This document shows, in pieces, positions 7,778 to 8,640 of a stretch of 32,121 nucleotides of DNA. This stretch comes from Planctomycetota bacterium (GTDB lineage: Bacteria > Planctomycetota > JAJSAM01 > JAJVHW01): assembly GCA_024277065.1 (NCBI GenBank), contig JAJRVY010000160.1, positions 1 to 32,121 on the forward strand. The letters run 5' to 3'. The translations under genes were made by a program, and so were the position numbers. The first letter of the stretch is position 1. Every line of letters begins with the position of its first letter. Below the pieces are notes generated by a model, which made no database searches, had not been told where the DNA came from, and worked only from the letters and a program-made list of their open reading frames with translations.

Positions 7778-8257
7778 TCACGCCCCGCGCGCTGCGCGGC
7801 GATCGGCGACGAACATGTATACGAACAGGAGCGCCAGAAGGGCCGCATGTCCGCCGTTGACGTACAACTCGCGATCGACGGAGGCCGCAGCGGTGGCGAA
7901 GAACGCGAAGCAGCCGCAGGCGAGCGCGCCGCCCCCTGCCGCCTTGGCGACGATCAGGAGCCCCGAGAACGCGAGCAGGAGCGCGAGCTAGAGAGCCACG
8001 CCGCGCCGCAGCGGGACGGCGCGGGCGAGCAGCGCCAGCCCGAGCAGCACCTCCAGCACGACCGAGGCGACGACGACGGACTTCGCGGGCATCCCGCCGC
8101 CGACGACGCGCGCCGCGAACTCGTACGCCGCTGTCGGCGCCAGCGCCTTGGCGACTCCCGCCCAGGTCCAGAACAGGCCTAGGTACACGCCGGTGAGGCG
8201 CAGCGCGGCTGCCCGTCTCCCGCCCGGCGCGGCGCCCCCCGCGGCGGCCGCCGTCAA
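7778..8257 (-). pseudogene. MauE/DoxX-like membrane protein with one in-frame TAG
   Basis: The frame runs 159 codons from a TTG at 8257 to TGA at 7778 but meets a single TAG at 7988-7990 (codon 90). Sequence on both sides is one coherent four-helix membrane protein. Before the stop is LTGVYLGLFWTWAGVAKAL and a second helix ending VPLRRGVAL; after it come LALLLAFSGLLIVAKAAGGG, ALACGCFAFFA with the CGC pair typical of MauE proteins, and a last helix LALLLFVYMFV. The TTG overlaps the upstream TGA as TTGA, with GGAG 8 bases before, so the pair is translationally coupled. MauE relatives act in disulfide or redox maturation at the membrane. It may be a pseudogene, a sequencing error or a readthrough gene. 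Confidence 0.7.
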
Positions 8258-8640
8258 CGTGCGTTCTCCGCGATCTCGACGTCGTAGGTGCGATCGACGC
8301 GCCCCTTCTGTGTTACGCGAACCGCCGCCGGCACGGGCGTGTCGGCGGAGACGCTGACGCGCGCCCGATACCGGGCGTCGGGCGAGAGCTCGAGCGTGCG
8401 TCCCGGCGGTGCCACCCGCGCCGCGCCGCGCAGCACCTCGACCACGACCTCGTCGATCGTCTCGCCGCCGCGCGGCGACACCCGCACCTCGTAGACGTCC
8501 TGGGCCTCGTCGTGCAGCCGGTGCACGATGTCGATCTCGAGCTAGGGCTCGAGCGGCGCCACGCGCGCCGCGGCCACGCCCCCCGCCGCGAGCGCGAGCG
8601 TCGCGCAGACGATGATCCGGAGACGGGGGGAGAAGACCAT
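8254..8640 (-). pseudogene. Small exported protein with one in-frame TAG
   Basis: From ATG 8640 the frame encodes a signal peptide or anchor (MVFSPRLRIIVCATLALAAGG), then VAPLEP, a TAG at 8542-8544, and continues in the same frame as LEIDIVHRLHDEAQDVYEVRVSPRGGE to TGA at 8254. The ORF track splits it into 8254-8526 and a longer unrelated upstream frame. The C-terminal part looks like a small beta-rich domain, with no family recognised. No Shine-Dalgarno is seen; TATGCT lies 6 bases before the ATG, which would suit a leaderless transcript. It is the first gene of the apparent operon with the MauE-like gene, S41 protease and lptB. Whether it is functional depends on the TAG. Confidence 0.6.

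Follow-up and report, generated by a model that had tools for sequence, protein, structure and literature searches.

Two in-frame TAG codons in a conserved planctomycetal gene pair are most likely single-base errors of a draft genome

Results

Two adjacent genes each contain one in-frame TAG

The window that we analyzed (32,121 nucleotides) is the entire contig C62 of a Planctomycetota draft genome (a MAG of 4.44 Mb in 362 contigs, with 91.6% completeness). On its minus strand lie two adjacent genes whose reading frames are each interrupted by a single TAG codon. Gene 1 (8640-8254), which judging by its translation and its intact orthologues in four relatives (G001-G004) encodes a small exported or membrane-anchored protein, runs from an ATG to a TGA and carries its TAG as codon 33 (8544-8542, minus strand); no Pfam or NCBIfam family matched it. 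Gene 2 (8257-7778) begins with a TTG that overlaps the TGA of gene 1, ends in a TGA and has its TAG as codon 90 (7990-7988, minus strand), at a distance of 554 nt from the first. Pfam, the translation and intact orthologues all identify its product as a MauE-like (PF07291) membrane protein, and the profile match, which covers residues 18-145 and spans the TAG, scores 36.8 bits against a curated cut-off of 27, compared with 44.1 bits for an orthologue.

A first-pass annotation had described these genes as coupled by TTGA, with one TAG in each, an open frame on both sides and a CTC codon after both stops. This description is accurate, as is evident from the translations and from proteins of relatives that align continuously across both TAGs. 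Neither gene contains any lesion besides its single TAG, and codon usage on either side of both stops is normal (AT3 of 10/129 and 15/159, with normal GC3), which is not the picture expected of pseudogene decay.

The shared TAGCTC context was considered as a possible special motif and rejected. CTC is among the commonest codons (approximately 47 per 1000), TAGCTC occurs in the window as often as expected (5 observed, 4.8 expected), and the octamer CTAGCTCG is found elsewhere in the genome too, in non-coding frames. Separately, the tetranucleotide CTAG is scarce in the window (10 observed versus approximately 31 expected), and three of its ten copies fall inside a 560-base span of genes 1 and 2. 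Among these three is a CTA leucine codon in gene 2 (8180-8182, minus strand), a codon that is rare here (about 1 per 1000 codons) and that is CTC in G001; it is possibly a third nearby base change of the same kind as the TAGs.

The gene pair is stop-free in relatives

We compared the pair with its counterparts in one relative from the same genus (G001) and three from the same family (G002-G004). The two genes are close together and stop-free in all four, and we therefore regard them as a conserved unit. The gene order in G001 is an EVE-like gene, a DoxX gene, gene 1, gene 2 and lptB; G004 shares with the window an S41 protease after gene 2.

Both TAGs are private to this draft. At the position of the TAG in gene 1, the relatives carry Thr (ACA), Ser (TCG), Arg (CGC) and His (CAC), and at that in gene 2 they carry Ser (TCC), Ser (TCT), Thr (ACG) and Val (GTG). 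These variable codons led us to reject a conserved TAG or a conserved residue at either stop. Alignment of homologues had been proposed as a check that would reveal either a sense codon, with Glu expected, or a conserved TAG; sense codons are indeed present in all four relatives, but Glu occurs at neither site in any of them.

The lack of conservation at each site, together with the accessory look of these membrane or exported proteins, would also suit real and recent nonsense mutations, present in this strain or in part of the sampled population, that leave fragments of 32 and 89 residues and a non-functional pair. That one operon was hit twice would be consistent with loss of the pathway after the first mutation, and occasional internal TAGs occur in relatives too. 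Like genuine unitary pseudogenes, the genes contain a stop where relatives keep the gene intact. Unlike such pseudogenes, they show no further decay, core genes elsewhere in the draft are affected equally, and the base changes do not have a transition-like spectrum (see below). On this balance, we consider real mutation unlikely, while still the foremost competitor of the explanation that we favor.

Isolated stops are scattered through the draft

A stop scan based on coding potential, which sought stops flanked on both sides by coding-like sequence, was applied to 1.147 Mb of the draft; true gene boundaries were weeded out by inspection, and domains were then verified with Pfam. Together with a family search, which rather than the scan contributed the stop in nth, this brought the total to 22 isolated in-frame stops, 17 TAG and five TAA, in functionally unrelated genes. 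Core genes are among those affected, which include argB, nth and an enoyl-CoA hydratase gene. In about a dozen of the genes, MauE-like gene 2 included, a single Pfam domain bridges the stop; the others among these domains include AA_kinase (argB), ECH_1, Peptidase_M16_C, NMO, Glyco_transf_9, BPD_transp_1, FabD_helical_ins, Sigma70_ECF, HEAT_2, TIG and DUF4175. A PDB search with two more interrupted proteins gave no match.

Besides the TAG pair, contig C62 contains one more isolated stop, a TAA (30806-30804, minus strand) in the otherwise intact hydratase gene, whose ECH_1 match extends across it; in homologues with solved structures, the corresponding residue is Glu or Asn. Elsewhere, the residues that relatives carry at the draft's stops comprise Ser (in three relatives, for a PfaD-like gene), Tyr (a HEAT gene), Ala or Glu (ArgB), Thr and others. 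Such variety fits random hits and not the action of one suppressor. Outside the sample, a gene for a translation-factor-type GTPase also contains an internal TAG (G000:C2:27151-27750), and in an order-level relative a TAG was reported inside an EF-Tu-like match (G005:C99:3778-4977).

Two independent nonsense changes without other damage had seemed surprising when the pair was viewed by itself. This impression does not survive the finding that isolated nonsense codons are spread across the whole draft: at the measured density, approximately 0.9 pairs within 554 nt are expected genome-wide (0.23 in the sample), and the TAG pair is therefore unremarkable.

To set this background against that of relatives, we used a homology comparison, since the coding-potential scan, which pointed to a wider gap, is less sensitive in G001, where codon bias is milder. 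In this comparison, limited to coding frames and resting on small counts, the draft has four in-frame stops plus one probable selenocysteine TGA per 48.8k aligned codons, and relatives have two per 49.7k, an excess that is not significant. Consequently, internal stops appear to be widespread among drafts of this kind, if perhaps more frequent in this one. About 49,000 aligned codons contained a single possible frameshift, indicating that the damage consists mainly of base changes and is not general decay.

Codon usage and the substitution spectrum

The predominance of TAG follows from the GC-rich codons of this genome, which sit one base away from it: of 221 single-step nonsense opportunities per 1000 codons, 146 lead to TAG, 32 to TAA and 43 to TGA. 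The observed ratio of TAG:TAA:TGA (17:5:0) is fitted about equally by A>T (logL -5.3) and G>T/C>A changes (-5.5), followed by an even mix (-6.6), and poorly by transitions alone (-13.5) or by G>C (-14.6). Natural mutation is dominated by transitions, and this spectrum is the one described above as arguing against real nonsense mutations. We also considered loss of MutY as a source of G>T mutations and rejected it; mutY is intact in the draft, which leaves no evident mutator of the G>T type.

Suppression, readthrough and code change

The first-pass annotation had left readthrough, suppression and assembly error as candidates. An in-frame stop flanked by conserved sequence is what programmed recoding looks like (pyrrolysine at UAG, selenocysteine at UGA), and in both genes frame and homology are perfect on either side of the stop. 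TAG is furthermore the commonest internal stop in the draft. Full-length proteins would result if a suppressor tRNA, pyrrolysine insertion or programmed readthrough let translation continue past UAG in vivo. Several observations make this very unlikely. First, no tRNA with a CUA or UUA anticodon is present among 43 tRNA loci (found with Rfam, anticodons assigned by ARAGORN, in a draft that is 92% complete), and no PylS match was detected in the genome at an E-value of 0.001; on these grounds a suppressor tRNA or pyrrolysine was rejected. Second, the stop itself is not conserved, being TAG in none of the four relatives, and the selenocysteine machinery that is present acts on UGA, not UAG. Third, TAA appears internally as well, and at the TAGs and TAAs of unrelated genes the residues found in relatives differ. 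Finally, codon usage alone predicts the predominance of TAG.

Release factor 1 (prfA) is present, which disposes of RF1 loss, and TAG terminates 183 of 614 coding-like stretches (approximately 30%), both of which also count against readthrough. A global code change had been judged improbable from the outset, and rightly so. Nothing beyond the internal TAGs themselves speaks for a lineage-wide reassignment of TAG as a sense codon, and with TAG a frequent true terminator, RF1 present and the genes of relatives free of TAG, we regard it as next to inconceivable. A further reading, in which many genes of this lineage undergo low-level readthrough of UAG and UAA that the organism tolerates or puts to use, is barely credible as well; it would require a factor that the draft, at 92% completeness, lacks, and would make scattered nonsense codons nearly neutral. 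Among the candidates initially named, then, assembly error is the best supported.

Internal TGAs at catalytic or redox cysteines

Every convincing internal TGA codon coincides with a catalytic or redox Cys. Because of this placement, and because the genome contains tRNA-Sec (anticodon UCA) and SelB, the genes concerned probably encode selenoproteins. In a homologue of O6-methylguanine-DNA methyltransferase (L173:16717, contig C82), the TGA occupies the conserved Cys of the PCHRV motif, and this protein is probably a selenoprotein. Two further TGAs lie in thioredoxin-like contexts, one in a DsbD-like protein (L023:8625, contig C6; UMNC) and one in a small protein whose motif reads UGTC (L161:12758, contig C113); both are probable selenoproteins.

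Discussion

We consider it most likely that each of the two TAGs is a single-base error in the consensus of a fragmented draft. Isolated single-base substitutions would have turned sense codons into TAG in a conserved and otherwise intact gene pair, and both TAGs would belong to the genome-wide nonsense background of the draft. Most of this background is best accounted for by wrong base calls or consensus errors of the kind that low-coverage assembly produces, and the organism itself probably carries ordinary sense codons at both sites. The background, the lack of detectable suppression machinery and the absence of the stops from relatives are observed; from the isolated stops over unrelated intact genes (22 in 1.15 Mb) and the scarcity of frameshifts we infer that the substitutions are artefacts, as opposed to real mutations.

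Low coverage and low-quality reads are known to create spurious internal stops, and low quality raises the number of stops more than that of frameshifts (PMC11017572). Our case resembles the spurious internal-stop pseudogenes described there in its single stops without frameshifts, its intact genes of unrelated functions and its origin in a draft genome; it differs in that the error is deduced from the draft consensus and from genus- and family-level relatives.

Some findings sit uneasily with sequencing error as the source. The unbiased homology sample is small, and its nonsense rate is not clearly above that of relatives. Non-catalytic TGA is absent, though the G>T model predicts about 3 among 22 stops. 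The contigs carrying stops are also not the shortest of the draft, as low coverage might predict. A literature search found no direct example of G>T artefacts in a MAG consensus.

For the interpretation of such genomes, the case for consensus error carries a caution: in GC-rich drafts, most single-base nonsense errors give TAG, and TAGs in neighboring genes can mimic recoding. A genome-wide stop scan tells such scattered nonsense TAGs apart from the TGAs that probably encode selenocysteine.
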